From Bacteroidota bacterium (GTDB lineage Bacteria > Bacteroidota > Ignavibacteria > Ignavibacteriales > Ignavibacteriaceae): a DNA stretch of 37,562 nt. The translations under genes were made by a program, and so were the position numbers. The stretch is taken from contig JAKAGV010000025.1 of the NCBI GenBank assembly GCA_021815405.1, positions 1 to 37,562 of the forward strand, read 5' to 3'. Positions 12,303-31,294 of this stretch are shown piece by piece (position 1 is the first letter of the stretch; each line of letters opens with the position of its first letter). The notes under the pieces are model-generated. The model saw nothing but the letters and a program-made list of their open reading frames with translations, ran no database searches and was not told where the DNA came from.

Positions 12303-12516
12303 TTTCCTCCTTAGATTGTTAGTACTTTATAAATACTATATGGAATTTGAGTTAATTAAATAACTGAGTTTCTACATTATTAAATTATTGTTTTGCATTA
12401 GGTTTGTTCACTTTATTGCTGTGAGTGCATTTATTTTGCTGTGAACGAGTAATTGAGAGAATAAAAAAATCCGACTATTTCCTCTTTTGACTTCCCTAAT
12501 TACTGTAATTAAAAAT
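12303..12516. other. Regulatory intergenic region
   Basis: 214 bases separating the GH16-like gene from the carbohydrate-binding T9SS gene. It carries the tandem TGCTGTGA element at 12417-12444, and otherwise AT-rich sequence. It is the likely promoter region of the downstream T9SS / TonB / PorV / ROK series. Confidence 0.55.
12417..12444 (-). promoter_or_regulatory. Tandem TGCTGTGA element, copy 1
   Basis: Two identical 8-bp boxes TGCTGTGA (as read on the plus strand; TCACAGCA in the direction of the genes) start exactly 20 bp apart, at 12417 and 12437. The 28-bp block matches the block at 28533-28560 at 25 of 28 positions. It lies about 115 bp upstream of the start at 12302. Direct repeats two helical turns apart suggest an operator for a protein that binds as a head-to-tail dimer. 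The regulator is unknown. Confidence 0.65.
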
Positions 12517-13389
12517 CTATTTACTCTCAGGAATAAATTCTACTTTATCAATTACAACTTCTATATTTTTATTGAAAAGCGGCGCCCTGTTGTATTCTTC
12601 ATTTCCTGCAAAGAGCCAAAGATTTATATGCAGCTTTGTCTCCTTACCAGGCTTAGGTATTACAATCGGTTCGGAATAAATCCCATCAATTACAACTCTT
12701 CTTGATGGATTTGTGTTTTGAAATTTCCAATTTGCAATTTCATATGATGTTGGATTACCGATGCCTGAATAACTTGTAAAAGTTACAACGGAGTCTGTCC
12801 AGGTAAATGTATGAGTCGAATAATTATCAGCAAGCTGCATATATCTTTGATAAGTTCTTTCGGAATAAAATCCGGTTTGGACGTCAGGTCCGTATACCGG
12901 CTGAACCGAGTACTCAAGATTTTTTCCTGTTGGATTTTTCCATCTCGAAACCTCAATATCAATCTCCGAATTCGCATCTGTTACACCCGAAATATCATTC
13001 CAGGTAAATAATCCAAGAACCGCATTCGGATCTAGGCTATCCACTCTGCTTGATAAATAAAATACATAAGTCCCATAGCCGACAGGTTTTTCAGTATAAA
13101 TTTCTGCGCATTTCCATATGCCCTGGTTCAATGTAATTTTCATGTGAAGTTTACCGGCATTATCCACCCAGACATTTTGCTTGCTGCGTGAGAAATAATT
13201 TTCTCCAGGACCGACAGGCTTAGTGCTTTCTTTTATCTTCCACTTTTGTCCTGAGAATTCTATTGTACTGTCATTCTCTAATGAATTATTTTGTATAGAA
13301 GTAATTTGTGTACTCTTACAACCGCTCAATGAAAAAATCAGATAAATTATTATTGTTGAAGCCCACCTATTTTTTAATGCAATTCTCAT
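12517..13389 (-). CDS. GH16-like lipoprotein (putative beta-glucanase)
   Basis: A 290-aa protein from the ATG at 13389; an upstream TTG at 13401 is less likely. A lipoprotein signal with lipobox LSGC (Cys24) indicates membrane anchoring. The body resembles the concanavalin-A-like jelly roll of glycoside hydrolase family 16, with the ExDxE catalytic signature in NSEIDIEVSRW (Glu142, Asp144, Glu146), the beta-bulge-free form typical of lichenase-type members. GYGTYVFYLSSRVDS before it fits the strand pattern of the family. GH16 enzymes hydrolyse beta-1,3/1,4-glucans or galactans, but the substrate cannot be named here. It lies 86 bp after the arylsulfotransferase-like gene that starts the block to its right. 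Confidence 0.7.
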   Translation of the reverse strand: MRIALKNRWASTIIIYLIFSLSGCKSTQITSIQNNSLENDSTIEFSGQKWKIKESTKPVGPGENYFSRSKQNVWVDNAGKLHMKITLNQGIWKCAEIYTEKPVGYGTYVFYLSSRVDSLDPNAVLGLFTWNDISGVTDANSEIDIEVSRWKNPTGKNLEYSVQPVYGPDVQTGFYSERTYQRYMQLADNYSTHTFTWTDSVVTFTSYSGIGNPTSYEIANWKFQNTNPSRRVVIDGIYSEPIVIPKPGKETKLHINLWLFAGNEEYNRAPLFNKNIEVVIDKVEFIPESK

Positions 13390-13475
13390 GTTTACTATCA
13401 AAGTACTTTATCTGCTTGTTTTGTTTTAGTATTCAATTGCGTCTTACAGTTGCAATGTTTGATGAACCCGATTCC

Positions 13476-16346
13476 TTATTTTAAAAGTAACATTTTCTTA
13501 ATCGCAAAGAAATTCTTACCGGAATTTTCGGCGGCTCTAACAGAATAGAAATAAACTCCTGAAGAAAGACCTGTTGCATTGAATTCAAATTTGTAACTTC
13601 CAGCGGGTTTTTCTTCATTAATAAGCTCCAAAACTTTTCTTCCAAGTATATCATAAATATTTATTGTTACTTTACTGCGCACCGCTAACTGATAACTGAT
13701 GACCGTACTCGGATTAAAAGGATTGGGATAGTTTTGGGAGACAAAAAAATCTTCAATGATTTTATTCTTATTTTCAATATTAGTTACTTCCCGTACAATC
13801 GAAAAAGCATTTTCACTTATTCCGTAAATTTTAGGATTAATTAAGCTAGTCACTTCAATTTTATAGGATGAGTCTTGCTGTAAGGTATGAGGCACTTTCC
13901 AGCTAAATGCATGAGTCTTTGAAACAGTCGAATCTGAAATAGTGGAAATGATATCGCTGTCTTTTATTAATTTTATGTTTACAGGGTCATCTATATTAGA
14001 TTGCCAACGTAAAATGAAAGTTGAATCCTGATTAATTTTTTCGCCGCCGTTCGGATTTATTATTTTGATAAAAGGCGAAGCAGTAAAAAATTTAAAAGCA
14101 TCAGACCACCCGCTCGTACCAGCCTGGTTGGTACTATTAACACGCCAATAATATTTTGAATTATTCATTAATGTGTTAATTTTAAATGAGGTTGAAGTTA
14201 AATTTGAATAATCAGCTAAATTATTTTGAAAAGTTGAATCACTCGCAACTTGAATACGGTAACTCCTAAGTATTCCGCGTGTCCCCCAAATTAAATTTAT
14301 AGGGTTTTCACCATCTACTATTTCATTATCTCCCGGTGAAATAGGAATCGGCGCATAAACACTTACTGCTTGGGAAATGCCGAATGTGAATTCACCAAAA
14401 TTAGAAATAATAAAAACTAATTCGTTTTTTGTGGAATCATAACTCGTTGCCAGCGGAATGAAAATGTTGCTTGAGTCAGGTCTCTCATATACTATCGTTT
14501 TTTTAGGGGCGGTGATGCCGGGAAAGTAATTTAAATTTAAATGAACTTCGCCTGTGAAAGAAATTATTCCCTGTCCTTCCAAATTAAAATAGTTCGCTGA
14601 AAAAATTGGCGCTTCGTTCTCAAACTTCGGATTTATTGGCGCATAATCATATTTTGAAAGGACTGCATTAGAATAGTCATTAGCATCAAGCTGATTAAAG
14701 ATTATCGTTATTCCCGTGGTGTCTGTCGAATTATCAAATGTATAAGTATTTCCCTGAAGAACTTCATAAGCCTTTACAGTAACTGCCGGAGCCTGGCTTA
14801 CCCAAGGATGTTTAAGCGAAAGGTGTGAAATTTGTCCGGTAGGCAAAAACATTTCCAGCGCAGTAGAATTATCCGGATGAATTTCAGTAAATGCAGGAAT
14901 CCCATTACCGTTTGCAATGCCCCAGCCTATCAGCGAATTTCCATTTGAAAGCCTTTGAACAGATCCCATTGCAGAAGTAAAAATATCTGGAGAATGTCTG
15001 TACTGCCAAACTAATGTGGCTGTTTTATTTTTTTCATCTAATTTATATTCTACTCCGCGGGAATATTTTAGCGGATGCTGATTCCCGTTATCGAACAAGG
15101 TAATATTTCCATTAGGCAAAACGCATATATCATGCTGGTATGAAAAATATGTCGGACTATTAGACTCATCTTCATTAAAAAAAGTAAACTGATTCTCTTT
15201 GCCTCCTAATATCCAATCAATGTCTCCTGTCTGCCGGTTTATTTTTATAATGCACGATAGATGCCTAAGAGATGCAAGGATATTTCCATCGGCATCAACT
15301 GCCAATCCGTTCATGTGAATTAAATCGATATTCTGTGAAGTAAGATCAAAGTAAGAATCTGTTATGGGAAGATAATCCCAAGAACGCCATTGGAAGACAA
15401 CATTTTTATCTGCGTCTATCTCTTGAATTACGATTCCCGTTACAATTGCATTTGGATTACCGCCAGGGACAACCTTACTCATGTCAACTGGTTCTGGATC
15501 ATATGCAAACAAAAGTCCATGTCCGTTCGGCAGAAGGAAAAAATCATGTGAGTTTGCAGTATAACCGTTTCCGCATTTAAAAGTATCCACCGGAGTTAAT
15601 GATGTATCAAGCAATATCCAGTTTATTCCAGCTCTGTAAGAAAAAGACAGATAGCCGTTTGGCTGCATCTTAAAAATATTTGCGGGTTGGGGAAGTTCTT
15701 TACATTTAGCAACAGTCCCATCATTGTTTATAATCATTAAATAATTTCCGATAGATTTATTTAACGATGCTGCAAGTTGATTGGTAATAAATATTTTCCC
15801 ATTTGAAGGATTATTCGAAGTACCGACAGTAATTTTGGGAAAATCAGATGGCAGCGAATCTGTTGTAATGCTTTTACCTGATATTTTATAAGGAATTTTT
15901 TCTTCATCCTGATTATTCGGCAATTCATCATATTGATTTATGTTAGAATTTAAACTTATGCTATGTGCCAACCAGGTAGTATGAAATTGAAAAGTAAGTT
16001 TTGAAAATTCATTCCCCTCTACAGTTTTAATACCCGGTTCAACAGTGACATTTACTTCTTCGTCGGGTAAAAATTCATTTTTAACGAAAAATAATATTGT
16101 CTTTTGATCATCCGATAATTTAACATCCCCTAAATGTCTTCCACTTTTATTCCCTTCAATAATAAATTCATTGGGAGAAAGGCTTGTGTAAGAAATGTTC
16201 TCCGACGATTTAAGAATTATGTTTGTACTTAATGATACCAACGAAGAATTATTCATTGGCGAAACGTACTGGAAAGATTGAGCTGCAATAAAATTACTTC
16301 CCAATAAAAATATCAATGATGTAAAAATGTATTTTAATGTTTTCAT
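13476..16346 (-). CDS. Secreted arylsulfotransferase-like protein with Ig-like, Fn3-like and T9SS domains
   Basis: 956 aa from the ATG at 16346, chosen because it has an AGGAG ribosome site 5 bases upstream and begins directly with the signal peptide; the longer frame to 16391 adds a non-signal leader. An N-terminal Ig-like domain (about 24-125) precedes an arylsulfotransferase (ASST)-type beta-propeller (about 165-600). Three His in family-like positions are H267 (SHDFFLLPNGHG), H344 (HMNGLAVDADGN) and H405 (YQHDICVLPNGN). ASST enzymes move sulfate from one phenol to another. Fibronectin-III-like segments (about 670-770) and a second sandwich follow, and the protein ends in a T9SS domain (NYPNPFNPSTVISYQL to KKMLLLK). 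The adjacent gene is a shorter paralogue. Donor and acceptor are unknown. Confidence 0.8.
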   Translation of the reverse strand: MKTLKYIFTSLIFLLGSNFIAAQSFQYVSPMNNSSLVSLSTNIILKSSENISYTSLSPNEFIIEGNKSGRHLGDVKLSDDQKTILFFVKNEFLPDEEVNVTVEPGIKTVEGNEFSKLTFQFHTTWLAHSISLNSNINQYDELPNNQDEEKIPYKISGKSITTDSLPSDFPKITVGTSNNPSNGKIFITNQLAASLNKSIGNYLMIINNDGTVAKCKELPQPANIFKMQPNGYLSFSYRAGINWILLDTSLTPVDTFKCGNGYTANSHDFFLLPNGHGLLFAYDPEPVDMSKVVPGGNPNAIVTGIVIQEIDADKNVVFQWRSWDYLPITDSYFDLTSQNIDLIHMNGLAVDADGNILASLRHLSCIIKINRQTGDIDWILGGKENQFTFFNEDESNSPTYFSYQHDICVLPNGNITLFDNGNQHPLKYSRGVEYKLDEKNKTATLVWQYRHSPDIFTSAMGSVQRLSNGNSLIGWGIANGNGIPAFTEIHPDNSTALEMFLPTGQISHLSLKHPWVSQAPAVTVKAYEVLQGNTYTFDNSTDTTGITIIFNQLDANDYSNAVLSKYDYAPINPKFENEAPIFSANYFNLEGQGIISFTGEVHLNLNYFPGITAPKKTIVYERPDSSNIFIPLATSYDSTKNELVFIISNFGEFTFGISQAVSVYAPIPISPGDNEIVDGENPINLIWGTRGILRSYRIQVASDSTFQNNLADYSNLTSTSFKINTLMNNSKYYWRVNSTNQAGTSGWSDAFKFFTASPFIKIINPNGGEKINQDSTFILRWQSNIDDPVNIKLIKDSDIISTISDSTVSKTHAFSWKVPHTLQQDSSYKIEVTSLINPKIYGISENAFSIVREVTNIENKNKIIEDFFVSQNYPNPFNPSTVISYQLAVRSKVTINIYDILGRKVLELINEEKPAGSYKFEFNATGLSSGVYFYSVRAAENSGKNFFAIKKMLLLK

Positions 16347-16474
16347 ATTAGCTCCTGTGAACTTCCAATTGCATCTTATTTTCTGTGTCACTTTTACCTA
16401 TGTTTTCAATATTTCCTGTTCACGTCATTTATAGTTCAGAATTCTAGTATTGATAATATGTGAAGCTCGAAATG

Positions 16475-17956
16475 TTATTTAAGAATCATCATCTTCCTTG
16501 TGCTTACAAAAGCGCCTGCATTCAATCTGTAGAAATAAACTCCGTTAGAAAGTATAGAACTGCCAAATGTAACTGAGTATTTCCCGGCAGGTTTATTCCC
16601 ATTCACAAGTATCGCAACTTCTTTTCCAAGTGAATTATACACTTTAAGCTTTACATAGCTGCCAGTTGCTAACTGATAATTGATAACGGTCTTTGAATTA
16701 AACGGATTTGGAAAATTTTGCGATAAAGAAAATTCAGCAAGTTTGTTTTTATTTACATTAGAAGGAGAAACTTTGCCTTTCCACGGAAACCTATAAGCTC
16801 TGTATGAATAAATATTTTCCTGAAATGAAATTTCGAATGATTTGGTTCCATCAGGTCGGACTTCAGTTACGGTAGGCAACGCGGCGCCCCATCCGATTAA
16901 GGTATTTCCGTTATTTAATCTTTGTGCATATCCTAACCCGATGCTGTATATATCAGGTGTATTTCTGAACTGCCAAACCATTTCGGCTGTGTTTGATTGC
17001 GTATTAAGCTTATATTCTACTGCTCTGGAAAAAGACATTAAAGCAGGCTGGCGCTTACATCCGTTATCAAATAATATTATATTTCCGTTAGTTAATTTCC
17101 GTGCAGCATGCTGCCAAGAAAAGCCTAAGCTGTCATTGAGTAATTTAAATTGACTCTTTTTACCGCCAAAACGCCAAATTATGTTTCCTGTTTCTCTATC
17201 GATTTTATCAATCTCTTGTAGGTTCCGGAAAGAAACTATCAGATTTCCGTCATCATCAATATCAATTGAGTTTGCATGAGTAAAGTCAATGGTACTTTGT
17301 GTGAGATCATAATAAGAATCTGTAATATCCAGATGATCCCAGCAAAGCCATTGAAACACCACATTTTTATTTTTATCCAGTTCCTGGATTACATTGCCTA
17401 TTACAGAAGCATGAGTTGAACCACCGCTGATAGTCTTACTCAAATCCATCGTCCGGGTATCTCGCCCGATGAGCAAAGCATGACCGTTAGGCAGCAGCCT
17501 TAATTCATGGATATCAGTTGTATAGCCGTTTTCACACTTAAAGCTGTCTACAACAGCATAAGTAGAATCCATTGCGTAATAGCATCCCGATTTCATGTCG
17601 TAATAAGTCAATAAACCATTCGGCTGTACTTTAAAATCATAGGTACCGCTTGGCGTTCTTTTATAAAAGATAGGTCTGCCGTTATTATCCAGTATCATTA
17701 TGTAAGGATTGTTTGCAGAAGTCACTCCAAGAAACAAATAGTCAGGATCAGGGTTGTTTGAAACAGTTATTTTGAACTTAGGAAAGTCGGCGGGAAGTCC
17801 TTCAAGTATATGAACGGCATTCTTATCTTCTTTGAAATCTTTCCCACCTGCTTTCACTATACTGTAGAGGCATAGATAAAGAAAAACTAGAAACGCATAT
17901 CTGATTAAATCTGAACCTCTAATTCCATTACCTATAAAATATCTGCCGGATTTCAT
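16475..17956 (-). CDS. Secreted arylsulfotransferase-like protein with T9SS domain
   Basis: A 493-aa paralogue of the next gene in the series. It has an N-terminal hydrophobic signal (about 18-38), an ASST-like beta-propeller, and a C-terminal T9SS domain (NFPNPFNSKTVINYQL to TRKMMILK). The three His of the family are conserved in spacing: H150 (DIHELRLLPNGHA), H227 (FTHANSIDIDDDGN) and H283 (WQHAARKLTNGN). It lacks the Ig-like and Fn3-like domains of the larger copy, so it is close to a minimal secreted ASST. It starts only 7 bp after the GH3 stop, which indicates co-transcription with the glycosidases. Sulfation of a phenolic or glycosidic product is an inference only. Confidence 0.82.
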   Translation of the reverse strand: MKSGRYFIGNGIRGSDLIRYAFLVFLYLCLYSIVKAGGKDFKEDKNAVHILEGLPADFPKFKITVSNNPDPDYLFLGVTSANNPYIMILDNNGRPIFYKRTPSGTYDFKVQPNGLLTYYDMKSGCYYAMDSTYAVVDSFKCENGYTTDIHELRLLPNGHALLIGRDTRTMDLSKTISGGSTHASVIGNVIQELDKNKNVVFQWLCWDHLDITDSYYDLTQSTIDFTHANSIDIDDDGNLIVSFRNLQEIDKIDRETGNIIWRFGGKKSQFKLLNDSLGFSWQHAARKLTNGNIILFDNGCKRQPALMSFSRAVEYKLNTQSNTAEMVWQFRNTPDIYSIGLGYAQRLNNGNTLIGWGAALPTVTEVRPDGTKSFEISFQENIYSYRAYRFPWKGKVSPSNVNKNKLAEFSLSQNFPNPFNSKTVINYQLATGSYVKLKVYNSLGKEVAILVNGNKPAGKYSVTFGSSILSNGVYFYRLNAGAFVSTRKMMILK

Positions 17957-17963
17957 CTTTTAT

Positions 17964-20594
17964 TTATTCAATTACATTATCAACGCCGCTAAGAGTAACT
18001 TTTGCTTGAACAATATTTTTCTTTTCAGTCAATCCCTTACCCGGCTGACTTCCGCCAACAAATATTTCAACTTCGCCCGGAAGAACTACTCTTTTGTTAT
18101 CGTTGCTTATAACCGATAAGTTTGCCGGCGTCAGATTGAACTCAATCAATTTTTCCTCGCCCTTCTTCAAGTGCACTCTCTTAAATCCTTCAAGCGCGAG
18201 AACCGGAACTGACACAGGCAAATTAGCATGCCTAACATAAAGCTGAACGACTTCATCGCCATCCATACTACCGTTATTTTTAACTTTCACTCTTAAATTA
18301 ATTGTATCCGAGGTAGAACAATTCTTTTTCGCTTCAAGTCCGCTGTAAACAAAAGAAGTATAGCTTAGACCGTATCCAAAAGGATATAAAGGTTCTCCTT
18401 CAAAATATCTATACGTCCGACCTTTCATATTGTAATCTTCAAATGGAGGCAATTGCTTTATAGATTTGTAAAATGTGACCGGCAATCTGCCGGCGGGATT
18501 ATAATCACCGAATAAAGCACTCGCAATTGCAGTACCACCTTCCTGTCCCGGATACCATGCCTCAAGAATTGCAGGAAGGTTCTTTTCTTCCCAGTTAATC
18601 GCTAAAGCACTGCCATTCATCATTACAAAAACGATAGGTTTGCCGGTTGCTTTTAACTCTTTAAGAAGCTTTTCCTGAACAGCCGGTAAGTTGATCGAAG
18701 TTCGGTCTCCGCCGACGAATCCCTCATAATTAACACCCATCTCTTCGCCTTCAAGTGAGGGAGAAATTCCGCCGCAGTAAATTATAATATCAGATTTCTT
18801 TGCTACCTCAAGAGCTTCTTTTTCTCTGTCTCTACCATAAATGAACCAGGCAAGCTTTATAGATGCACCGCCAGCACTCTGAAAATATTCTAACTTAATT
18901 TTGTGTTTTGTTTCCTTGAGCCAATCAACATTAAAAGTTTTAGTGGGCGATACATGTTCTGACCAATCGTTTATAATCAGGCTGTCGTCTAAAAATAATC
19001 TATAGCCGTCGTCGCCGGTAACCGCAAATTGATACTTGCCTGAGTATGGCGAAATAATTTGCCCTGTCCATCTGACAGAATAATTTTTGGGAGAAAAATT
19101 CTTTGCAGGAATTAAGTCGTCCCAAACAAAATTAATAGTCGGATCAATTCTAACCTCTGAAGGCACTCCTGATAAATTTGTATTAGTAAAATATTCACCT
19201 TTTAAACCATGATGTTTTCCCGTCAATAAAAATTCAGCAGGAACTACCTCAGGAGTTGTTTGTCCTTCCACAAAATCATCACCAGAAGCATAATATACTT
19301 TTGTATTCTTTGAGACTAAGTTTTTTATTCCCTGCAAAGGAGTAACATATTTTGAAGGTATTCCGTTATAGTTACCATACATAACATCTGGGTCATCTGC
19401 ATTAGGTCCAATTACTGCGATGGCATTTAAATTCTTCTTCAACGGTAAAAGATTTTTCTCATTTTTTAATAGTACCATGCTTTGCTGAGCAACTTTAATA
19501 GAAAGCATCCGGTGTTCATGAGAATCATTTACTCCCGGACTGATATTATTATACGGTACTTTATTATCCGGATCGAACATTCCCAAACGAAATCGAGCTT
19601 CCATTAATCGTTTTACAGATATATCAATGTCTTTTTCGGTAAGATATCCTTTTCCAATTGCTTCTTTCAGATGACTGTAAGAATTGCCGCAATTAAGATC
19701 ACATCCTGCTTTGACTGCATCTGCGGCTGCTTCCTCGATTGATGAAGCATATTTATGTCCGAAGTAAATATCACCAACTGCGTCGCAATCTGAAACGACA
19801 TAACCTTTGAAGCCCCACTTGTTTCTTAGCATATCGGTAAGAAGATATTTGCTCGCACTTATTGGAACATCTTTGTAACTGTTATAAGCAGACATAATAG
19901 AATAAGCTTTTCCTTCTTTTACACAAGCTTCAAAAGCAGAAGCATAAGTATCAAGAAAGTCTCTCTCTCTTATTTCTGCATTAAACTTATGTCGCTGAGG
20001 CTCAGGACCACTATGCACGACATAATGCTTAGGAGTAGCTACTGTCTTTAAATAAAAAGGATCACTGCCTTGCATACCTTTTACAAAGGCAACTCCCATT
20101 CTTGATGTAAGGAAAGGATCCTCGCCGTAGGTTTCCTGCCCCCTTCCCCATCGCGGATCACGGAATATGTTGATGTTTGGAGACCAAACAGTTAAACCTA
20201 TCATACCAATATTCTGTTTATCTTTTAAATAAGCATTGTATTTGGCTCTAAATTCATCGGAGATAACAGTTGCAACTTTGTAAAGAAGACTATCGTTAAA
20301 AGTTGCTGCTAATCCTATCGCCTGTGGGAATACAGTTGCAACTCCCTTACGCGCTACCCCATGCAAACCTTCATTCCACCAATTATATTCCGGAATCCCC
20401 AATCTTGGGATTTCAACTGCTTCATTCATCATCTGTGAGATTTTTTCATCTAATGTCATTCTCCCGACGAGGTCATTTACTCTTTCTTCAACCGGTAAAG
20501 ATGGATTTTTATATGGCTCGACCTGTGCCGCTGCTTTAATATAAATCAGCATGCATAATGATAAAATAAGCCTTGAATAAAGAAAATTTTTCAT
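17964..20594 (-). CDS. GH3 beta-glycosidase with inserted PA14 domain
   Basis: An 876-aa periplasmic glycoside hydrolase of family 3, with a signal peptide (about 1-24, ending at AAAQ). The N-terminal barrel carries WNEGLHGV, DPRWGRGQETYGEDP, the KH motif (ATPKHYVVHSG) and the nucleophile region YVVSDCDAV with Asp269. A PA14 domain (about 461-586, GLKGEYFTNTNLSG to SIKLAWF) is inserted in the second, alpha/beta domain, a known arrangement in GH3. A C-terminal fibronectin-III-like domain (about 770-860) follows. Family members cleave beta-glucosides, beta-xylosides or related sugars; the GLHGV and YGEDP signatures fit the beta-glucosidase/beta-xylosidase group. It lacks a T9SS domain and should act in the periplasm. 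It is downstream of the 558-aa gene by 56 bp. Confidence 0.92.
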   Translation of the reverse strand: MKNFLYSRLILSLCMLIYIKAAAQVEPYKNPSLPVEERVNDLVGRMTLDEKISQMMNEAVEIPRLGIPEYNWWNEGLHGVARKGVATVFPQAIGLAATFNDSLLYKVATVISDEFRAKYNAYLKDKQNIGMIGLTVWSPNINIFRDPRWGRGQETYGEDPFLTSRMGVAFVKGMQGSDPFYLKTVATPKHYVVHSGPEPQRHKFNAEIRERDFLDTYASAFEACVKEGKAYSIMSAYNSYKDVPISASKYLLTDMLRNKWGFKGYVVSDCDAVGDIYFGHKYASSIEEAAADAVKAGCDLNCGNSYSHLKEAIGKGYLTEKDIDISVKRLMEARFRLGMFDPDNKVPYNNISPGVNDSHEHRMLSIKVAQQSMVLLKNEKNLLPLKKNLNAIAVIGPNADDPDVMYGNYNGIPSKYVTPLQGIKNLVSKNTKVYYASGDDFVEGQTTPEVVPAEFLLTGKHHGLKGEYFTNTNLSGVPSEVRIDPTINFVWDDLIPAKNFSPKNYSVRWTGQIISPYSGKYQFAVTGDDGYRLFLDDSLIINDWSEHVSPTKTFNVDWLKETKHKIKLEYFQSAGGASIKLAWFIYGRDREKEALEVAKKSDIIIYCGGISPSLEGEEMGVNYEGFVGGDRTSINLPAVQEKLLKELKATGKPIVFVMMNGSALAINWEEKNLPAILEAWYPGQEGGTAIASALFGDYNPAGRLPVTFYKSIKQLPPFEDYNMKGRTYRYFEGEPLYPFGYGLSYTSFVYSGLEAKKNCSTSDTINLRVKVKNNGSMDGDEVVQLYVRHANLPVSVPVLALEGFKRVHLKKGEEKLIEFNLTPANLSVISNDNKRVVLPGEVEIFVGGSQPGKGLTEKKNIVQAKVTLSGVDNVIE

Positions 20595-20650
20595 TGATAG
20601 TATCCTGTCTTTTCGAAATTTTTTTGTGAATCTAATTGAATTATCGCTTT

Positions 20651-22327
20651 CTAAAATGATATTGTAATTTTTTCTCCGTGAATATGTTTGACTCTCAGAA
20701 CTCCACCTTTATCAAGGGCATTCCAAGTAAATCCTTCTTGATTTAAGTTACTTAACTCTTCAATCTGAACATTATCAACTCTAATCATTATTGGTTTTGA
20801 AATAAGTCTGAAAACTTCAACGGACGAATTATCGAATGTTGTATATCTAATTTCTTCCGGTGAATATATAATATCTTTTATGACTGATGTTGAACCAAGT
20901 AAATGGTTTTCATTCTGCGGTGCCCATTCCGGTATCGCAGCCATTCCTTCCACAAAATGTCTGATATAGTCACCATAACCATCCGTAAACCACGATGTTG
21001 ACCATTCAGGTCCGGTCCAAACGTAGCCTTTATTTTCGCACATGTAAGTTGCAGTATTGAAAAAATGGTATGCTTCTTCTTTATAATATTTGTCTCCGGT
21101 TTTTTCATACCAAAGTGCACAGATAGAGGCATAGCGAGCCGTATGGCTGCCCATAGGCTCATAGCAGTATGTTTGTTCTCTGATTGCATCCATTCCCTTA
21201 ACTCCAAAAGTACTGGCAACCCATGTTAATAATGCAGGAATGTCTTTCTTCCAGATTAAATCTTTTTCAGGATGTTTTAAAATATATCGGGCAGTTTCCA
21301 TCGGTGTAATTTCAATTCTATTTATTCTGTTTGAGTCGCTTGGGACATCTTCAAAATAGCCGTTCCAGATAAAAGTTTTCATAGGACCGTTTTTTGAAAA
21401 TAACCAGTTCCATGCTAATTCACCAGCTTTTTTATAAGCTTCAATTTTCCCTTTTCCCAAATGAATTTGAGATTTAATTCGTAGCAATTCATCAAACAGT
21501 TTTACAGGATCAACAACATTAGAGCAATAATCATCTTTAATTTTTCCCGTTTTCGCATTAACTCTGAATGCCCAGGGAGATGAAATAGAAAAGTCTGTTG
21601 AGAATTTTGTAGTCGGTGCGGATACATTTCGTACATGCTTTGCTAAGGCATCAGCACAATTGATTGCGGCATCCAGATATATTTTTTCTCCTGTGATTTC
21701 GTAAAACTGTAAGTAAGCAAAACCAAGCTTACCGACTTTGTCAGGCTCAATGAAATACCTTCCATCTCCACGACCTTCATCTTCCCAATTTGTAGCTCCT
21801 TCATAATAACGGCTTCTGGGGTTTGCACTAGCATATGGACAATTTGCCCAAACCCAATCATCCGGTGTTGTTCCATTTGATAAAATTTGATCAAGGCATT
21901 CTCTTACAATAGAAATATATGAAGTATCTCCTGAAAATGTAAGGTAATCAACGGCAAGGCTTTGTGCAAAATCTGCAAATGTACATGCAGGATTAGGCAT
22001 CCATCCTGAGCCGCTTACTCCTTTATAAAAATCTTTATTCTGATTTGGTCCGTCAAAATCTGCATGGACCATATAAAGTTTTAATTTGGTAGTTGGCTCA
22101 ATTGGACAATCTTTTATAAAGCGCGCTGCTAATTCAACGACACGAGCATAACCAGCGCCCGGTATTTCCGGTTTGAACCAGGGAAGAATTTTGCCGTCTT
22201 TATCATAAATTGCCTTATGAGAGCAAATCGTATCAACCGGCGAAGAAGTACATTCAAAATCATTCTGCGCATTTAAGTTGCATGTTATCGACAAAAACAA
22301 TATGATTAAGTAAAAATATTTTTTCAT
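20651..22327 (-). CDS. Putative periplasmic (alpha/alpha)-barrel enzyme of unknown specificity
   Basis: A 558-aa protein with a signal peptide (about 1-20, ending at LNAQ). I do not recognise a named family. The body is rich in helical pairs with Trp/Tyr/Asp clusters (ADFAQSLAVDYLTFSGD, WVWANCPYASANPRSRYYEG, KVGKLGFAYLQFYEITGE, ARYASICALWYEKTGDKYYKEEA), a pattern typical of six-hairpin (alpha/alpha)6-barrel glycosidases and lyases. Near the C-terminus a beta-rich piece (about 470-558) may be a small sandwich domain. Its place between a GH20 and a GH3 gene supports a role in glycan breakdown, for instance an unsaturated or substituted oligosaccharide hydrolase. This is inference; no catalytic residues are assigned. 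Confidence 0.6.
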   Translation of the reverse strand: MKKYFYLIILFLSITCNLNAQNDFECTSSPVDTICSHKAIYDKDGKILPWFKPEIPGAGYARVVELAARFIKDCPIEPTTKLKLYMVHADFDGPNQNKDFYKGVSGSGWMPNPACTFADFAQSLAVDYLTFSGDTSYISIVRECLDQILSNGTTPDDWVWANCPYASANPRSRYYEGATNWEDEGRGDGRYFIEPDKVGKLGFAYLQFYEITGEKIYLDAAINCADALAKHVRNVSAPTTKFSTDFSISSPWAFRVNAKTGKIKDDYCSNVVDPVKLFDELLRIKSQIHLGKGKIEAYKKAGELAWNWLFSKNGPMKTFIWNGYFEDVPSDSNRINRIEITPMETARYILKHPEKDLIWKKDIPALLTWVASTFGVKGMDAIREQTYCYEPMGSHTARYASICALWYEKTGDKYYKEEAYHFFNTATYMCENKGYVWTGPEWSTSWFTDGYGDYIRHFVEGMAAIPEWAPQNENHLLGSTSVIKDIIYSPEEIRYTTFDNSSVEVFRLISKPIMIRVDNVQIEELSNLNQEGFTWNALDKGGVLRVKHIHGEKITISF

Positions 22328-22491
22328 TCATTTGCTCATGTAGTACAACATTCGTAGTTATAAAATCCATTTATTCTTGAATATTAAATCGAAAGTATTT
22401 TTTATTACTCTATATTCATTTTCCCAAATAAGCAATACATTTTATTTAACAAGAATAGAGAATCCGGTATCCAGAATCTAGCATCCAGCTA
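22328..22491. other. Intergenic region with heptamer repeat
   Basis: 164 bases between the GH20 stop and the 558-aa gene. The GH20-proximal end has a short tandem heptamer array (22461-22488); the rest is AT-rich with no clear promoter or terminator. Confidence 0.5.
22461..22488 (-). repeat. Four tandem heptamers, consensus CTGGATN
   Basis: Read on the minus strand, four 7-bp units follow each other without gaps: CTGGATG, CTAGATT, CTGGATA and CCGGATT. A fifth, degenerate unit (CTCTATT) may follow. The array begins 3 bases after the GH20 stop codon. Its role is unknown; replication-slippage repeats of this size occur between genes in various bacteria. Confidence 0.55.
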
Positions 22492-24009
22492 CTACCACTC
22501 TCCATTTTCATATTCAAATCCTTTAGAATTTAAGTAAGGTCTAATAGCGTTAACACGAGTTAGAAAATTCTCATAATTTTTATTTTTCTCTGGGCTCCAG
22601 ACTACTTCAGAGAACGCAAGAATTCTTGGGAATATCCGGTGCTGAACATCATTTTCAAGAACTAATTCCGTCCACAATGCACATTCACTGCCTATTACAA
22701 ATTTCTTTTCACTTTCCTTTAAACTGTCGGGCGTAGGATTGAATGAATAAACTTTTTCCAAATTTAAAACCGGCATCCAATCAGGTCTGTTTTTCTTTTC
22801 TTCGCTATTGTAAGGGTAATCAAAATAGACATAAATATTATCTGCATTAACTGTATAATAACCGTTTCTTGCGGCTTCCCATGATTCGCCCGGATGCCAT
22901 CCTTCAACAATCTGATTTTTAGGAACTCCGTCTTTAATATTTTCTGCCCAGGCTAATGTCTTTACGCCTTTGCTTGAGATATAATTGCAGATATCTTTCA
23001 TAAAATAATTCTGAAGCATGTCTTCATTAGCTAATCCTAATTTTGAAACCATCGCTTTACACTCCGGACATTTTTCCCAAACACCTTTTGGTCTTTCATC
23101 TCCGCCGACATGAATAATTTCCGGCTTAAAAATATTTATCACTTCAGCGAGCTCAATCTTAATGAATTTATAATCACTTTCATTACCGGCACAATAAGTT
23201 TTGCCCCCGGAATCTGTTGGGCATAATAATTCAGGATAACTTTCCATCACCGCTCTCGAATGCCCGGGCATTTCAATTTCTGGTATAATTTTTATGTAAA
23301 GCTTTTTTGCATATTGAATTACTTCTCTAATTTCGTTAGCTTTATAGTAGCCGTTTCTTTCCCTTGCATTTAATGAATCAAGATAAGAGCCGACAAGGTT
23401 TAACTTAGGATACTTTTTACTTTCAATCCTCCATCCTTCATCATCAACCAGGTGCCAGTGAAATGTATTGAGCTTAAGTAATGCCATTACATCTAAGACC
23501 CTTTTTATAAAATGAACTGACTGAAAATGCCTGCTTGCATCTAGCATAAATCCTCGGTAAGGATATCGCGGATAATCGGCAACTCTGCAGCCTGGGAAAA
23601 AAACTTTATCATCTTTACTTAAAATTTCCTTGAGAGTTTGAATACCGTAAAAAATTCCGTTGCAGTTTTTGCCTGTAAGTCTTACTTCGTTTTTATTTAT
23701 TGTTAATTCGTACCCGTCTGGTTTGATGCTGCTTTTTTTATTTAAGTCTATAATGATTCCGTAACCCGGAGTTCCTCTTCTTAATTTTAGATTTATCCCG
23801 GTACGCTCATGAATTGAGGTTTGCAGCATGCCGACAATCCTTTTTAACTCTGCATTATTCGAAGTAATAAAAATGTTGCTTCCATCTTGAAGAATAAATT
23901 TTCCATTTGTAGCAGTCGCAGCAACCGGCTCCGGAATTATATTTAGACTCTGTGCAAAGCACGAGCTTAGAAATGAAAATAGAAAAAATATAACGTACAA
24001 TCGCTTCAT
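22492..24009 (-). CDS. GH20 beta-N-acetylhexosaminidase
   Basis: A 505-aa periplasmic enzyme with a signal peptide (about 1-20, ending at CFAQ). An N-terminal alpha/beta domain of the GH20b type (about 21-145) precedes the catalytic barrel. The barrel has RGFMLDASRHF, NTFHWHLVDDEGWRIE, IIPEIEMPGH and the family catalytic pair D304-E305 in HVGGDERPKGVW. GH20 enzymes use substrate-assisted catalysis to remove terminal beta-GlcNAc or beta-GalNAc. The start codon overlaps the stop of the upstream symporter by 4 bp (ATGA), so the two are translationally coupled and the symporter plausibly imports the released sugar. The nearby GH2 exo-glucosaminidase supports an amino-sugar (chitin- or chitosan-like) substrate, though glycoprotein glycans are also possible. 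Confidence 0.93.
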   Translation of the reverse strand: MKRLYVIFFLFSFLSSCFAQSLNIIPEPVAATATNGKFILQDGSNIFITSNNAELKRIVGMLQTSIHERTGINLKLRRGTPGYGIIIDLNKKSSIKPDGYELTINKNEVRLTGKNCNGIFYGIQTLKEILSKDDKVFFPGCRVADYPRYPYRGFMLDASRHFQSVHFIKRVLDVMALLKLNTFHWHLVDDEGWRIESKKYPKLNLVGSYLDSLNARERNGYYKANEIREVIQYAKKLYIKIIPEIEMPGHSRAVMESYPELLCPTDSGGKTYCAGNESDYKFIKIELAEVINIFKPEIIHVGGDERPKGVWEKCPECKAMVSKLGLANEDMLQNYFMKDICNYISSKGVKTLAWAENIKDGVPKNQIVEGWHPGESWEAARNGYYTVNADNIYVYFDYPYNSEEKKNRPDWMPVLNLEKVYSFNPTPDSLKESEKKFVIGSECALWTELVLENDVQHRIFPRILAFSEVVWSPEKNKNYENFLTRVNAIRPYLNSKGFEYENGEW

Positions 24010-25469
24010 GGTAATATCTCCGTTGTTGAAATCCTATTATTAATCTCTAATTCTTTATTCGAAAAAAGTAAGGAACCGATAACCATTCCAATTGGCGCGA
24101 GTATAAAGCTCAATAACCCGGCATGAACAGGATTAACCCCCGAGTTGATTATTGAATAAATCGGTGGAACAGCGCTTAATACAAACGCGGCATATGCGCC
24201 ATAAGTATTCGCTTTTTTCCAGTATATACCGGCAACCAAACCGGAAATTATTCCCGCATAAGATAAAGAACCGGTTAAGGCAATTATTCTAAAAACAGTA
24301 TCAGAAAAATTGTAATAAACTCCCCAGAAAAATATGAATAGACCTATTACCATAATTCCAATTCGTGTATACGAAATTCTTTTGCTGTCCTTAACTTCTT
24401 TTCTAATCAACGGACTAACAATGTCTTGTGCTAAAATTGCACTAAAAGAAAGAAGATAACTGGAATAGGTTGACATAGAAGCTGCTAAAAATCCTATAAC
24501 AATAAATCCTATCATCCAGACTGGAACAACTTGTAGCAGCATTGTTGGTAGAGCAGTTTGTGTATGTGTAACAGGTCCTAAAATTGCAAGCGCAGCTATA
24601 CCCCATAATACTGGCACACTGGATCTAAAAAACATGAAAACACTCGTAATTCTAAATAGTTTTAATGCCGAAGTAACACTTTCCATACTTAATGTTCTTT
24701 GAACTACCGGCTGCCATGATGACCATCCGCTTAAGTAATAAAGTGTTGTCCATATTATAAAAACAAAACCATACTTTGGAGCATTAATAACATCAAATCC
24801 CTTATGACCGATGTATTTATTTACAGATGCAATCATTCCGGAAATTCCATTCGCACTTCCAAATGCATAAAATGAAACTATCACTATACCTATTAGAATA
24901 AGAACAAATTGAAAAACATCTGTTATAACTACCGAGTACATTCCGCCTAACACGGTATAAATTATAACAAAGACAAGTAGCACTCCCATAACAACCGCCA
25001 AGCTGTTAAGCGGCAAACCTAATATTATACAAAGAAATCTTCCTTCCACCTGTAGAAATATTCCCATGTTTAATACGCCGGTAAGAAATGTTAAAACCCC
25101 TGCAATTACCCTAATATTATTTGAATATCTTAGTGTGAAGTATTCCGGAACAGTTCTGATTTCCATTGCCCTTAGCTTTTTGATAACAAAACCTGTTCTT
25201 CCAATCAGCCACATAGTGAAGCCAGCAATTACACCTGTAATTAAGGCGACAAATCCGTTTTCAAATGCTTCTTGCGAAAAGTAAACAATAGTTACAAGCC
25301 CCATTTCAGTGCTGCTTAATGTAGCTAATCCCCACACCGATTTTATTTTTCTACCGGCAACAAGAAAATCATCTATGCTTTCATCTTTGCCGCGGCTTAC
25401 CCAAACACCAAGCGCAAGGCTCAATAAAAGAAAGTCGACTACAAGAAACCACGTTAGATAAAAGCTCAT
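24006..25469 (-). CDS. Sodium/solute symporter (SSS family), coupled to GH20
   Basis: A 487-aa inner-membrane protein of the solute:sodium symporter (SSS) family, with about 13 hydrophobic segments. The first helix begins at the N-terminus (WFLVVDFLLLSLALGVWV), and the next loop has ESIDDFLVAGRKIKSVWGLA, typical of the family. It should import a sugar or related solute with sodium. It follows the Gfo/Idh/MocA gene by 20 bp and overlaps the GH20 gene by 4 bp, which suggests transport of the GH20 product (amino sugar) or a matched oligosaccharide. The substrate is inferred only from context. It is clearly divergent from the other SSS protein encoded at 26649-28427. Confidence 0.85.
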   Translation of the reverse strand: MSFYLTWFLVVDFLLLSLALGVWVSRGKDESIDDFLVAGRKIKSVWGLATLSSTEMGLVTIVYFSQEAFENGFVALITGVIAGFTMWLIGRTGFVIKKLRAMEIRTVPEYFTLRYSNNIRVIAGVLTFLTGVLNMGIFLQVEGRFLCIILGLPLNSLAVVMGVLLVFVIIYTVLGGMYSVVITDVFQFVLILIGIVIVSFYAFGSANGISGMIASVNKYIGHKGFDVINAPKYGFVFIIWTTLYYLSGWSSWQPVVQRTLSMESVTSALKLFRITSVFMFFRSSVPVLWGIAALAILGPVTHTQTALPTMLLQVVPVWMIGFIVIGFLAASMSTYSSYLLSFSAILAQDIVSPLIRKEVKDSKRISYTRIGIMVIGLFIFFWGVYYNFSDTVFRIIALTGSLSYAGIISGLVAGIYWKKANTYGAYAAFVLSAVPPIYSIINSGVNPVHAGLLSFILAPIGMVIGSLLFSNKELEINNRISTTEILP

Positions 25470-25489
25470 GATTTTGCCATAATGTTTAG

Positions 25490-26506
25490 TTATAAATCTA
25501 TCGGCTGTTTAGTTTGAGCTGATTTTTCCAATGCTGCTATTACTTTAGTCGCTTCAAGTCCATCCTCGGCTGTAACAAATGGATTTGCATCATTAACAAT
25601 GCAATCAATAAAATGCTGAATGGAAACTTGCCCTTGCGGATTTCCTTCAAGATCATATTGTTCGCCGACATCGAGCATTGCAGTACCAACCGGAGAATAT
25701 TTTTCAATCATTCGATGATGGCTGATATCAACCTTTACAGTAGTTTTTGATCCGATGAATTCCGCTTTGAATTCGTAAACACTTGGAGCGCTTTCTGCAA
25801 TTATCCAGCAGTTCTCCATGTATACAGTTCCGCCATTGTTTAACTCAAGAATTGATTGGAAAAAATCCGGTGTGTCAATTCCCATACTCTTTAGTAGCTT
25901 TGATTGACTTACAGAATAAACTCTGTTAATTTCCGTACTCGATACCCAGCGAATCAGATCGACTAAATGAGTGCCCAAAAAATTTAAAGCGTTGGATTTT
26001 GAAGCCCAGCTTAACATTTTTGTCGGGACGTAAATGGTATCGTTCAATTTTATATTTACCATTTGTAAATCACCTAGCTCACCTGAAGTAATAAGTTTTT
26101 TGACTTGAATGAACGGCGTTTTCCACCTGTTGCTGTAATTCACCATTAATTTCTTACCCATCTTATCCCGCAGATTTATAATTCTTCTGCAGTCCTCAAC
26201 TGTTGTAGCCATCGGCTTCTCAACAATAATATGCTTACCCGCTTCAAGCGCTGCACATATTAATTCTGTGTGAGTAAAATCCGGGGTAACAATTGATACG
26301 GCGTCAATATCCTTATTTTCCAGCATTGCATTCACATTATCATAAGCAAATAGGGTATTATACTTTTCGGCAAATTGCTTTGCCCTCCCTAAATCAAGAT
26401 CGCAAATGCCAACCAATTTAGAATTAGGTGATTGAGAGAGTGTTCTTGCATGAACATCGCCCCATGTACCGCAGCCAATAATTCCAAATCCAATTTCTTT
26501 TTTCAT
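25490..26506 (-). CDS. Gfo/Idh/MocA-family oxidoreductase
   Basis: A 338-aa cytoplasmic NAD(P)-dependent oxidoreductase. The Rossmann motif GxGxxG is G11-C-G13-T-W-G16 in GIIGCGTWG, followed by the family EKP motif (E96-K97-P98 in VEKPMATTVEDC). The C-terminal alpha/beta domain (from about residue 125) carries GTHLVDLIRW, with a His/Asp pair in the usual catalytic region. Family members oxidise or reduce sugars, inositols and their derivatives, or act as NAD-dependent glycosidases. It is 20 bp upstream of the symporter/GH20 pair, so it probably works on the imported sugar. Exact substrate unknown. Confidence 0.88.
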   Translation of the reverse strand: MKKEIGFGIIGCGTWGDVHARTLSQSPNSKLVGICDLDLGRAKQFAEKYNTLFAYDNVNAMLENKDIDAVSIVTPDFTHTELICAALEAGKHIIVEKPMATTVEDCRRIINLRDKMGKKLMVNYSNRWKTPFIQVKKLITSGELGDLQMVNIKLNDTIYVPTKMLSWASKSNALNFLGTHLVDLIRWVSSTEINRVYSVSQSKLLKSMGIDTPDFFQSILELNNGGTVYMENCWIIAESAPSVYEFKAEFIGSKTTVKVDISHHRMIEKYSPVGTAMLDVGEQYDLEGNPQGQVSIQHFIDCIVNDANPFVTAEDGLEATKVIAALEKSAQTKQPIDL

Positions 26507-26648
26507 TTAATTTCTCTATTAGTTTAAGATGAACATTTTTTTGATTAACTCATTTTAAGCTTTTAAATCTTTGCGTTGGTTGATCTTTCTCTTAATCGGG
26601 TTTAAATCCGATTAAGATTACGAGCAAGAATTACCAGTGTAATTTCAT
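26507..26648. other. Intergenic region with palindrome
   Basis: 142 bases between the two transport units, with the palindrome at 26590-26617. No -10/-35 pair could be chosen reliably. Confidence 0.5.
26590..26617. terminator. Palindrome between symporter and oxidoreductase genes
   Basis: Perfect 10-bp arms TCTTAATCGG (26590-26599) and CCGATTAAGA (26608-26617) around an 8-base centre GTTTAAAT. There is no T-run after either arm. It lies 32 bases past the stop of the 592-aa symporter and could be a transcript end, an mRNA-processing hairpin or a dimeric repressor site controlling the downstream oxidoreductase unit. Confidence 0.4.
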
Positions 26649-28427
26649 TTAGTTCGATAAAGTCTCCCAGCCACGCTTATTCATCTTATAGAAAATAATG
26701 CTGCCGAAAATAATCCCGGCTATTAAGAAAATTATTCCGAGAGAAAGACTGCCAAGAATAATTTGTCCAAGTCCAAATAGAAATGAATATATCATTGCAA
26801 CGCCGCTAATCCAGTTTATCAAATTTAATATTCCATCTTTCACAGGTACGACGTCCGGCGTCTTTTTTGCAACCGGCAGCCAGAACCTTGCATTCGGTTT
26901 CACCTTCCTATAGAATGAAATTAATTTATCATGAGGTTCCGGATTGGTTAAAAATGTTACGACCACCCAAACTGAAGTTGTAAATGCAACGGTAATCAGC
27001 AGAAGATGAGCAAATTGGCGCGGATCATTTTCGTTAAAGTGAAATCCAAACTGAAGGATGAGCGAAATTGTAAACGCCGCAACCATCGCTGAGATTTCAC
27101 TCCATGCGTTTATTCTCCACCAGAACCAGCGTAAGATATAAACCAATCCCGTACCGGCGCCAATCGCCATTAAAAACTGCCATGCACTTGCTATCGAATC
27201 CATATAAAAAGTTACTATTGCAGAAAGAATCATTAAAATCATAGTTACAAGCTGGGAAAAATTCACATAGTGCTTTTCACTTTTGTTTTTGACATATCTT
27301 TTATAAACATCATTAACAAGATAGCTAGCCCCCCAATTAAGCTGCGTTCCAATAGTCGACATATAAGCTGCTGCAAAAGCTGCTATCATCAAACCTCTCA
27401 AGTAAGCCGGCAAATCCGTTATCATTATTCTTATGTAACCGGTCTCTGGATCATTTAAAAATTTCGGATCATGTTGCAAGCGTACAACTGCCACTAGTGC
27501 AACAAGAATCCAGGGCCACGGACGCAATGCATAATGAGCAACATTAAACCAAAGAGTTGCAAGAAGCGAATGCTTTTCATTCTTAGCACTGAATATTCTT
27601 TGCGCAACATATCCGCCTCCGCCGGGTTCAGCACCTGGGTACCATGATGCCCACCAATTTACAGCAATGAATACAAAAAAAGTTATCATCGGCATCCAGG
27701 TAGAATTTAGATCCGGCACCATCGATAAGATTGAGCTTGTTGCCTCCCTGGATTTATCTACGGCATGCAATTGTGTAATCAAAGAGTTCATCCCGCCAGT
27801 AGCATTAACTGCAAAAACTGCAAGTATAATTACCATTCCCATTTTTAATATAAATTGGAAAAGGTCTGTCCATAAAACTCCCCACAAACCTGATAAGGTA
27901 GAAATGGATGCAGTAATAAACATAATAGCAATCGCAATTGCCAGAGCTTCTATCTTGTTAATTCCGAGTACGAGCATCATAATCTTTACAATGGCAAGAT
28001 TTACCCATCCCATAATAATTAGGTTTATTGGAAGTCCGAGATAAGCCGCACGGAAAACTCTTAAGAACGCAGCAGGCTTTCCGCTGTAACGTATTTCAGC
28101 AAACTCAACATCGGTAAGAACGCCTGCCCTGCGCCATAGCTTTGCATAAAAAAATACAGTGAGTATTCCGCTGAAAGCCATACTCCACCATATCCAATTG
28201 CCTGCAATTCCGTTTCTTGCTACGAGACCAGATACAACAAGCGGAGTATCTGCCGCAAAGGTTGTAGCTACCATCGATGTTCCCGCAAGCCACCAGCTTA
28301 CATTCCTGCCGGAGACGAAAAAATCACTTACGCTTTGTGTAGCACGCTTTCTTAAATAAAGACCGACCCCAAGATTAAATAAAAAGTAAAGTGTAATTAC
28401 GATAAAATCAATGTAAGTGAGCTGCAT
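26649..28427 (-). CDS. Sodium/solute symporter (SSS family), larger paralogue
   Basis: A 592-aa SSS-family symporter with about 13-15 hydrophobic segments. Family features are the N-terminal helix YIDFIVITLYFLFNLGVGLY, the loop QSVSDFFVSGRNVSWWLAG and the core ATTFAADTPLVVSGLVARNG. An extra C-terminal extension (after about residue 480) with two more hydrophobic segments (SGVAMIYSFLFGLGQIIL and GIIFLIAGIIFGSIIF) makes it longer than the other SSS protein in the locus. It should take up a sugar with sodium. Upstream at 28533-28560 is the second copy of the tandem TGCTGTGA element, about 106 bp before the start. It opens the central carbohydrate block, so it is likely a regulated first gene. 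Confidence 0.85.
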   Translation of the reverse strand: MQLTYIDFIVITLYFLFNLGVGLYLRKRATQSVSDFFVSGRNVSWWLAGTSMVATTFAADTPLVVSGLVARNGIAGNWIWWSMAFSGILTVFFYAKLWRRAGVLTDVEFAEIRYSGKPAAFLRVFRAAYLGLPINLIIMGWVNLAIVKIMMLVLGINKIEALAIAIAIMFITASISTLSGLWGVLWTDLFQFILKMGMVIILAVFAVNATGGMNSLITQLHAVDKSREATSSILSMVPDLNSTWMPMITFFVFIAVNWWASWYPGAEPGGGGYVAQRIFSAKNEKHSLLATLWFNVAHYALRPWPWILVALVAVVRLQHDPKFLNDPETGYIRIMITDLPAYLRGLMIAAFAAAYMSTIGTQLNWGASYLVNDVYKRYVKNKSEKHYVNFSQLVTMILMILSAIVTFYMDSIASAWQFLMAIGAGTGLVYILRWFWWRINAWSEISAMVAAFTISLILQFGFHFNENDPRQFAHLLLITVAFTTSVWVVVTFLTNPEPHDKLISFYRKVKPNARFWLPVAKKTPDVVPVKDGILNLINWISGVAMIYSFLFGLGQIILGSLSLGIIFLIAGIIFGSIIFYKMNKRGWETLSN

Positions 28428-28589
28428 TTATCTCCAACAATTTTTTTGATGAATGTCATTTACATAAATGACTTTTTTATACGCTTTCTGATGGTCGAAA
28501 ATTAAATATCAGGCAATAAATAATAATTAAAATGCTGTGAATGCGTATATTTTGCTGTGAGTAATACATACGTTAGGAGCTTAAGTCCC
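28428..28589. other. Regulatory intergenic region upstream of the larger symporter gene
   Basis: 162 bases between the broken PPIase gene and the symporter gene. It holds the second tandem TGCTGTGA element (28533-28560) and AT-rich sequence. This is the probable promoter of the symporter/oxidoreductase block. Confidence 0.5.
28533..28560 (-). promoter_or_regulatory. Tandem TGCTGTGA element, copy 2
   Basis: Two TGCTGTGA boxes begin at 28533 and 28553 (plus-strand reading), exactly 20 bp apart, as in the copy at 12417-12444; 25 of 28 positions agree and the second box is preceded by TATTTT in both. It sits about 106 bp upstream of the symporter start, close to the 115 bp of the other copy. A shared regulator is inferred. 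Confidence 0.65.
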
Positions 28590-31244: not shown

Positions 31245-31294
31245 AATATTTACCCTTTTTTAATGGAAAAAATAAATGTCCCTAAAATGTTAAG

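Follow-up and report, generated by a model that had tools for sequence, protein, structure and literature searches.

The window analyzed here, a stretch of 37,562 nucleotides that makes up one whole contig (JAKAGV010000025.1) of a Bacteroidota bacterium of the family Ignavibacteriaceae, carries two blocks of genes, each preceded by a copy of the same tandem element, and a two-component pair of regulator and kinase. All large genes of both blocks lie on the minus strand, as do the two elements, which we call operator 1 (12417-12444) and operator 2 (28533-28560) after their proposed role. The first gene after operator 1 (9738-12302) encodes a secreted protein with a sorting tail of the type IX secretion system (T9SS; Por_Secre_tail). 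It is followed by a TonB-dependent receptor (6837-9557), far below the SusC/RagA cut-off in the Pfam and NCBIfam scan, a protein of 1044 amino acids (aa; 3680-6814) without a Pfam or NCBIfam match at E <= 0.001, which adjoins the TonB receptor in relatives too, a PorV-like outer-membrane protein (2631-3665) recognized by domain scan, and two ROK-family proteins (596-2613). The latter are probably sugar kinases (Pfam ROK; the top NCBIfam model is a ROK glucokinase, below its cut-off); in both, the ROK match starts at residue 8 and there is no helix-turn-helix (HTH) match. Operator 2 is followed by an SSF sodium:solute symporter (26649-28427; Pfam SSF), and by three genes identified in the domain scan: a Gfo/Idh/MocA oxidoreductase (25490-26506), a second SSF symporter (24006-25469) and a GH20 enzyme of the beta-N-acetylhexosaminidase family (22492-24009; Pfam Glyco_hydro_20, 9.3e-99). 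Beyond GH20 come a 558-aa protein, a GH3 enzyme with a PA14 domain (17964-20594; domain scan), which is a putative member of the operator 2 transcript, and two ASST-like proteins with T9SS tails. Structure models of the T9SS-tail protein at operator 1 and of the 558-aa protein have a mean pLDDT of 49.8 and 46.8, respectively.

Operators 1 and 2 are identical at 25 of 28 positions, and each consists of two exact 8-bp boxes 20 bp apart with a 12-bp spacer (TGCTGTGA-N12-TGCTGTGA), as described in the initial annotation of this DNA. Its placement of each block about 110 bp before a start codon on the same strand agrees with the measured 114 bp (operator 1, start codon at 12302) and 105 bp (operator 2, start codon at 28427), and its statement that the window holds no other copy is borne out: the four TGCTGTGA boxes of the two operators are the only exact copies on either strand. 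The box is present as it was given, but its gene-strand sequence is TCACAGCA, and in relatives the half-site extends beyond 8 bp. Identity is confined to the element, and the flanks of the two operators differ. At up to three mismatches the window contains three matches to the pattern against 0.19 expected, a number reached in none of 100 shuffles; the third, at 15311 (three mismatches), lies within an open reading frame (ORF). The exact pattern occurs only twice in the organism's own genome (4,974,758 bases in 31 contigs searched), both times in the window, while up to three mismatches yield 22 matches (two exact, none with one mismatch, one with two and 19 with three) against one for the reversed control pattern. 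The weak matches are commoner than the control, yet look like chance occurrences. We rejected the match at 15311 and the other own-genome matches with two or three mismatches as such; all nine remaining matches to the refined pattern introduced below (up to three mismatches) sit in ORFs. One weak match recurs three times in steps of 432 bp (L017-L019; G000:C18:216741, 217173 and 217605), which indicates a tandem repeat.

Upstream of operator 2, the domain scan reveals a pair that is missing from the initial annotation's account of the locus (30477-32056, minus strand). The response regulator (30477-31244) joins a receiver to a LytTR DNA-binding domain (Pfam Response_reg, 8.7e-27; LytTR, 2.3e-20; both above the curated cut-off). 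Receiver residue D52, which we take to be the phospho-acceptor aspartate, and the sequence FIRIHRS at residues 203-209 are invariant in four of four aligned orthologues (those of genomes G116 and G111 are outside the alignment). The C-terminal part alone has 3d6w as its best solved-structure match (E 3.7e-06). FIRIHRS occupies the place of a DNA-contact motif that PMC4227749 gives as FFRCHNS in AgrA and FhRhHRS in VirR. The proposed partner (31295-32056) is a histidine kinase core of HisKA/HATPase_c type, 253 aa long and without the N-terminal part of its homologues, four of which measure 377-537 aa, with PAS matches in three. Between operator 2 and the regulator (28590-30134), three ORFs of 80, 106 and 191 aa lie in broken succession, one of them with a marginal match to a PPIC-type isomerase; the stretch looks like an inserted, decaying gene. 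The typical binding site of a LytTR regulator lies close to the promoter and is a pair of imperfect direct repeats, each 8-13 bp long, with about 12 bp between them (PMC4064291, PMC4847170, PMC4227749). The element has this geometry, and the locus itself encodes a LytTR regulator; the earlier suggestion of an undescribed kind of operator is not supported.

The regulator and the element occur together across genomes. We searched 164 genomes of the order for the regulator at a threshold of E <= 1e-80, and found matches in eight; six of them, the window included, are 67-100% identical and are regarded as orthologues, while the regulators of G040 (55%) and G042 (53%) were counted as non-orthologues in the genome-wide and symporter comparisons alike. 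At the same threshold, none of 12 other genomes of the same genus has a match, and an even draw of 395 genomes from the phylum yielded, at E <= 1e-85, no orthologue other than those of G038 and G116. Among the best 80 of 517 relatives from a search of 85k species, the G116 and G019 contigs are followed by whole-length relatives of at most 48% identity and by receiver-only matches. In all five orthologue loci other than the window a site lies 11-52 bp past the stop codon of the regulator, and two of the five (G116 and G111) came to light once the search rule was already fixed on the others. A refined pattern, derived from four of the six loci (window, G038, G019 and G046), has 13 matches with at most one mismatch in nine of the 164 genomes, against one match for the reversed control. 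These nine comprise 6/6 genomes with a regulator orthologue against 3/158 others (G049, G064 and G138), and the Fisher value of 3e-9 overstates the association because of the origin of the pattern in four of the six loci. G116 and G111 give cleaner confirmation: their sites have no mismatch and lie where predicted. The element is kept in three families of the order, alongside regulators 68-78% identical to that of the window; the flanks are not.

At up to three mismatches, the six regulator-bearing genomes contain 56 matches against nine for the reversed control. Eleven sites were accepted at first: nine with at most one mismatch, G019 C27:19103, and one on contig C7 of G116. We read the 45 set-aside matches in context and found 40 inside ORFs of at least 100 aa; among the other five, the match on contig C65 of G046 precedes a homologue of a window gene and was accepted, bringing the total to 12. 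The gene-strand half-site is approximately CGYTYACWGCA (11 sites, six genomes). Among loose TGCTGTGA matches, a LytTR gene is found in the stretches read at none of 29 loci in relatives and at none of 17 weak-match loci in the own genome (L008, which lies in the window, L018 and L019, tandem copies of L017, and G038:C39:285, which has no locus of its own, are left out of the counts), and in one of seven further loci (matches in G049, G064, G138, G038 and G116).

The symporter gene provides a control for this coupling. The SSF symporter that follows operator 2 has matches at E <= 1e-200 in 22 of the 164 genomes (23 copies). A site is present in the 320 bp upstream of all three copies from regulator-bearing genomes (scores of 15-16 out of 16), and upstream of none of the 20 copies from other genomes (best scores of 9-12; Fisher 0.0006), a comparison that omits G038, whose symporter gene is cut off by the end of its contig, as well as G019 and G111, which have no SSF match. 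Ten of the 20 site-free copies come from nine genomes of the same genus and are 82-93% identical. The element therefore belongs to the regulator and not to the symporter gene.

The scan of the whole genome and of relatives, for which the initial annotation named enrichment before carbohydrate or T9SS genes as support, returned the two exact own-genome copies and, in relatives, sites before homologues of the T9SS, SSF and TonB genes. G038 has two more sites on separate contigs (C56 and C57; L242:5158 and L243:5629): one precedes a 59%-identical homologue of the T9SS-tail protein beside GH3 and 558-aa homologues, and the other a homologue of 44% identity, after which come a GH43-type gene and both ROK genes. 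All three sites of this genome are within 6 kb of contig ends and may represent one split locus. The second site of G019 (L082:19103) also precedes a homologue of the T9SS-tail protein. On contig C7 of G116, a weaker site (three mismatches) stands before the TonB, 1044-aa and PorV genes, and the promoter sequence downstream of it nearly equals that of the symporter. A single site in G046 heads a close run of SSF, ROK, ROK, ASST, TonB and 1044-aa genes, which belong to both blocks, and the weaker site on another contig of this genome (C65:13924; three mismatches) precedes a 38%-identical homologue of the T9SS-tail protein, followed by GH20 and 558-aa homologues. In G038, G116 and G046, the contigs that bear separate sites may be neighbours in the genome. 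The presence of sites before homologues of both blocks, and the G046 run that holds both, support a single regulon, and this part of the original proposal stands.

The position of the element relative to the putative promoter is also fixed. The -7 element of Bacteroidota is given as TAnnTTTG in PMC7366714, and all 11 sites first accepted have a box of this kind beginning 28-29 nt beyond the repeat. In the window, the putative boxes on the gene strand are TAATTTAA (12380-12387, minus strand), starting 29 nt past operator 1, and TAATTTTC (28497-28504, minus strand), starting 28 nt past operator 2. The summed box score is 55 of 66, which none of 1000 resampled sets attains (best 44), and the three sites added after the box had first been seen peak at the same offset. 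The twelfth site (G046 C65) has four of six letters at the box; 7 of 44 other set-aside matches score as well or better. Start sites predicted from the boxes would put the repeat at about -68 to -41, centred near -54; the AgrA repeat is centred near -60 (PMC4227749). A repeat upstream of the -7 box at a fixed and comparable distance argues for activation.

We therefore consider it very likely that the two elements are operators of the LytTR regulator, which would activate both transcription units together. In the proposed mechanism, the neighbouring kinase would phosphorylate the regulator, and a pair of LytTR domains would bind the two half-sites, which at a period of 20 bp lie on nearly the same face of the helix. 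Bound at the position given above, the regulator would help RNA polymerase at both promoters. The unit of operator 1 would comprise the T9SS-tail protein, the TonB receptor, the 1044-aa protein, the PorV-like protein and the two ROK proteins; that of operator 2 would run from the SSF symporter through the oxidoreductase and the second symporter to GH20, and perhaps to genes beyond, GH3 and the ASST-like proteins included. The kind of switch is known, but this particular LytTR regulon appears to be new: among the matches listed from the open-licence literature, judged by title or the start of the abstract, no paper deals with the specific motif and regulon.

The same regulator could instead act as a repressor, or join the two promoters, 16 kb apart, in a looped complex. 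The pairing of regulator and site leaves the sign of regulation unfixed, the window locus has two sites, and five of the six genomes have more than one accepted site; for looping, the possibly adjoining contigs of G038, G116 and G046 count as well. Nevertheless, at every one of the 12 accepted sites the putative -7 box is a constant distance downstream of the repeat and is not covered by it, and G111 has a single site at up to one mismatch, so that we hold this alternative to be unlikely. Much less probable is another direct-repeat factor encoded elsewhere, such as an AraC-type protein of the sort found in Bacteroides hybrid two-component systems. AraC-type proteins do recognize direct repeats about two helical turns apart, as seen here, but none of the 20 window proteins scanned against Pfam (a set that excludes smaller and nested ORFs) has an AraC domain, and the site tracks the LytTR regulator in the symporter copies (3/3 against 0/20). 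The high identity of the two blocks might also stem from the recent copying of a promoter or leader stretch that has no regulatory role, or from plain coincidence. A duplicated leader is rejected because the identity ends at the element; moreover, the element but not its flanks is kept next to diverged regulators in three families, and coincidence is rejected for the two window copies in view of the 0.19 matches expected in the window and the two exact matches in the genome, which makes either account highly improbable. Finally, TGTGA within each box and the ROK proteins of the first block could point to a CRP/FNR-like or ROK/NagC-like operator, the least credible option of all, given that a CRP/FNR-type site is the palindrome TGTGA-N6-TCACA and the element is a direct repeat, and that the two ROK proteins have no HTH match.

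Several findings weigh against the reading of the elements as LytTR operators that activate both units. Four of the six loci went into building the refined pattern, which makes its association with the regulator partly circular. In G049, a genome that lacks a close orthologue of the regulator, there are two good matches: one adjoins a LytTR paralogue of 42% identity; the other (L233:2938, G049:C99), where the repeat is very good, precedes an MCP-type gene, and the 11 kb read there contain no LytTR gene. Neither has a clear -7 box at 28-29 nt. Three sites, G019 C27:19103 (two mismatches), G116 C7 (three) and G046 C65 (three), were accepted for the genes behind them. The regulator-linked site is followed by a gene other than the symporter in both G019 and G111, and the T9SS-tail protein homologue of G116 (L176:3279-5855) has no site by the search rule. 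The regulator and operator 2 are separated in the window by 1916 bp with broken ORFs, against 11-52 bp in the other orthologue loci. The window kinase has no recognizable sensor part, and a tblastn search of the window found no trace of the missing portion; in G111, no kinase was recognized beside the regulator, where the neighbouring 534-aa protein has no Pfam match and a 184-aa ORF beyond it was outside the scan. Lastly, 22 of the 26 loci of paralogous regulators described next have no related repeat at the threshold used.

We searched these 26 loci, whose regulators are 42-55% identical, and 46 control loci for a repeat of the core AGTRARYG at periods from 12 to 32. At a period of 20 the repeat appears in 4/26 paralogous loci against 0/46 controls (two of the four, L047 and, by eye, L028, were seen before the count), and at any other period in at most one locus, in paralogues and controls alike. 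This hints that paralogous regulators share the operator format. A family-wide pattern, GYAGTRARYG, has 16 matches against four for the reversed control; of these 16, three have a LytTR gene within 1.5 kb, and five do in longer stretches (L234, L236, L238, L239 and L091), some of which end at contig ends. It is conceivable, though on balance doubtful, that a whole lineage of LytTR regulators in Ignavibacteriales shares a single operator format (period 20, core AGTRARYG, in many cases past the regulator gene), of which each regulator reads its own variant, and that regulator and operator together constitute a portable promoter module, able to be set in front of sugar-use genes that are already present. 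If true, this would explain the site at the window symporter while the 82-93% identical copies of the same genus have neither the site nor an orthologous regulator. Ancestral presence followed by repeated loss is the plainer alternative. Paralogous regulators with related repeats offer material for working out which residues of LytTR domains specify which bases.

The regulon probably serves the use of an amino-sugar glycan. The genes present suggest that a substrate such as chitin oligosaccharides is captured, taken up and catabolized, because the blocks include GH20, GH3, ROK and SSF members and the kinase is adjoined by a GH2 protein with an exo-glucosaminidase-type Ig domain. One and the same two-component system would control the uptake and catabolism of such a glycan and a T9SS-tail protein. 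For a group that has been little studied, sequence alone provides a regulator paired with a defined operator and a defined set of targets. The pairing can be tested with a small number of assays, for which the 28-bp sites, the regulator and symporter promoters naturally lacking the site are at hand. Elsewhere in the window, near the contig end, ORFs that are transposase-like in sequence appearance lie in pieces (35805-36972; 197 aa at 35805-36398 and 88 aa at 36706-36972), and a 171-aa ORF at 34831-35346 with a weak winged-helix match (HTH_24, below cut-off) is possibly the remnant of a ROK-type repressor.

The element has the repeat length and spacing of known LytTR operators, including those of AgrA, YpdB, YehT/BtsR, VirR and PlnC. 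According to PMC4847170, nearly all LytTR sites have repeats of 9-11 nt and spacers of 11-13 nt, with no common consensus. Short sequence matches therefore prove little: the oligonucleotide with the YehT site of Escherichia coli yjiY in the same paper contains CGCTTAC, like the G046 half-site GCGCTTACTGCA, and the AlgR core CCGTTCGTC, as given in PMC4064291, shares CGTTC with operator 1 (CTCGTTCACAGCA). Unlike known LytTR operators, those of the window have a different half-site sequence, a period of 20 bp, and targets in glycan-use and T9SS-tail genes, and the neighbouring kinase is of HisKA type (with PAS in three of the four homologues scanned) rather than of LytS type. Bacteroides hybrid two-component systems (PMC11253607) control glycan-use genes by phosphorelay, as proposed here, but unite kinase and regulator in one polypeptide, whereas the window encodes separate proteins. 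The nearest studied parallel that we found is the chitin utilization locus of Flavobacterium johnsoniae, where deletion of CusS/CusR abolishes growth on chitin (PMC5127042). Like the window, this locus combines a two-component pair with GH20 and an inner-membrane sugar transporter; it differs in having SusC/D-like pairs and GH18 chitinases, in place of which the window has a TonB receptor that falls far short of the SusC/RagA cut-off, SSF symporters and ROK proteins.

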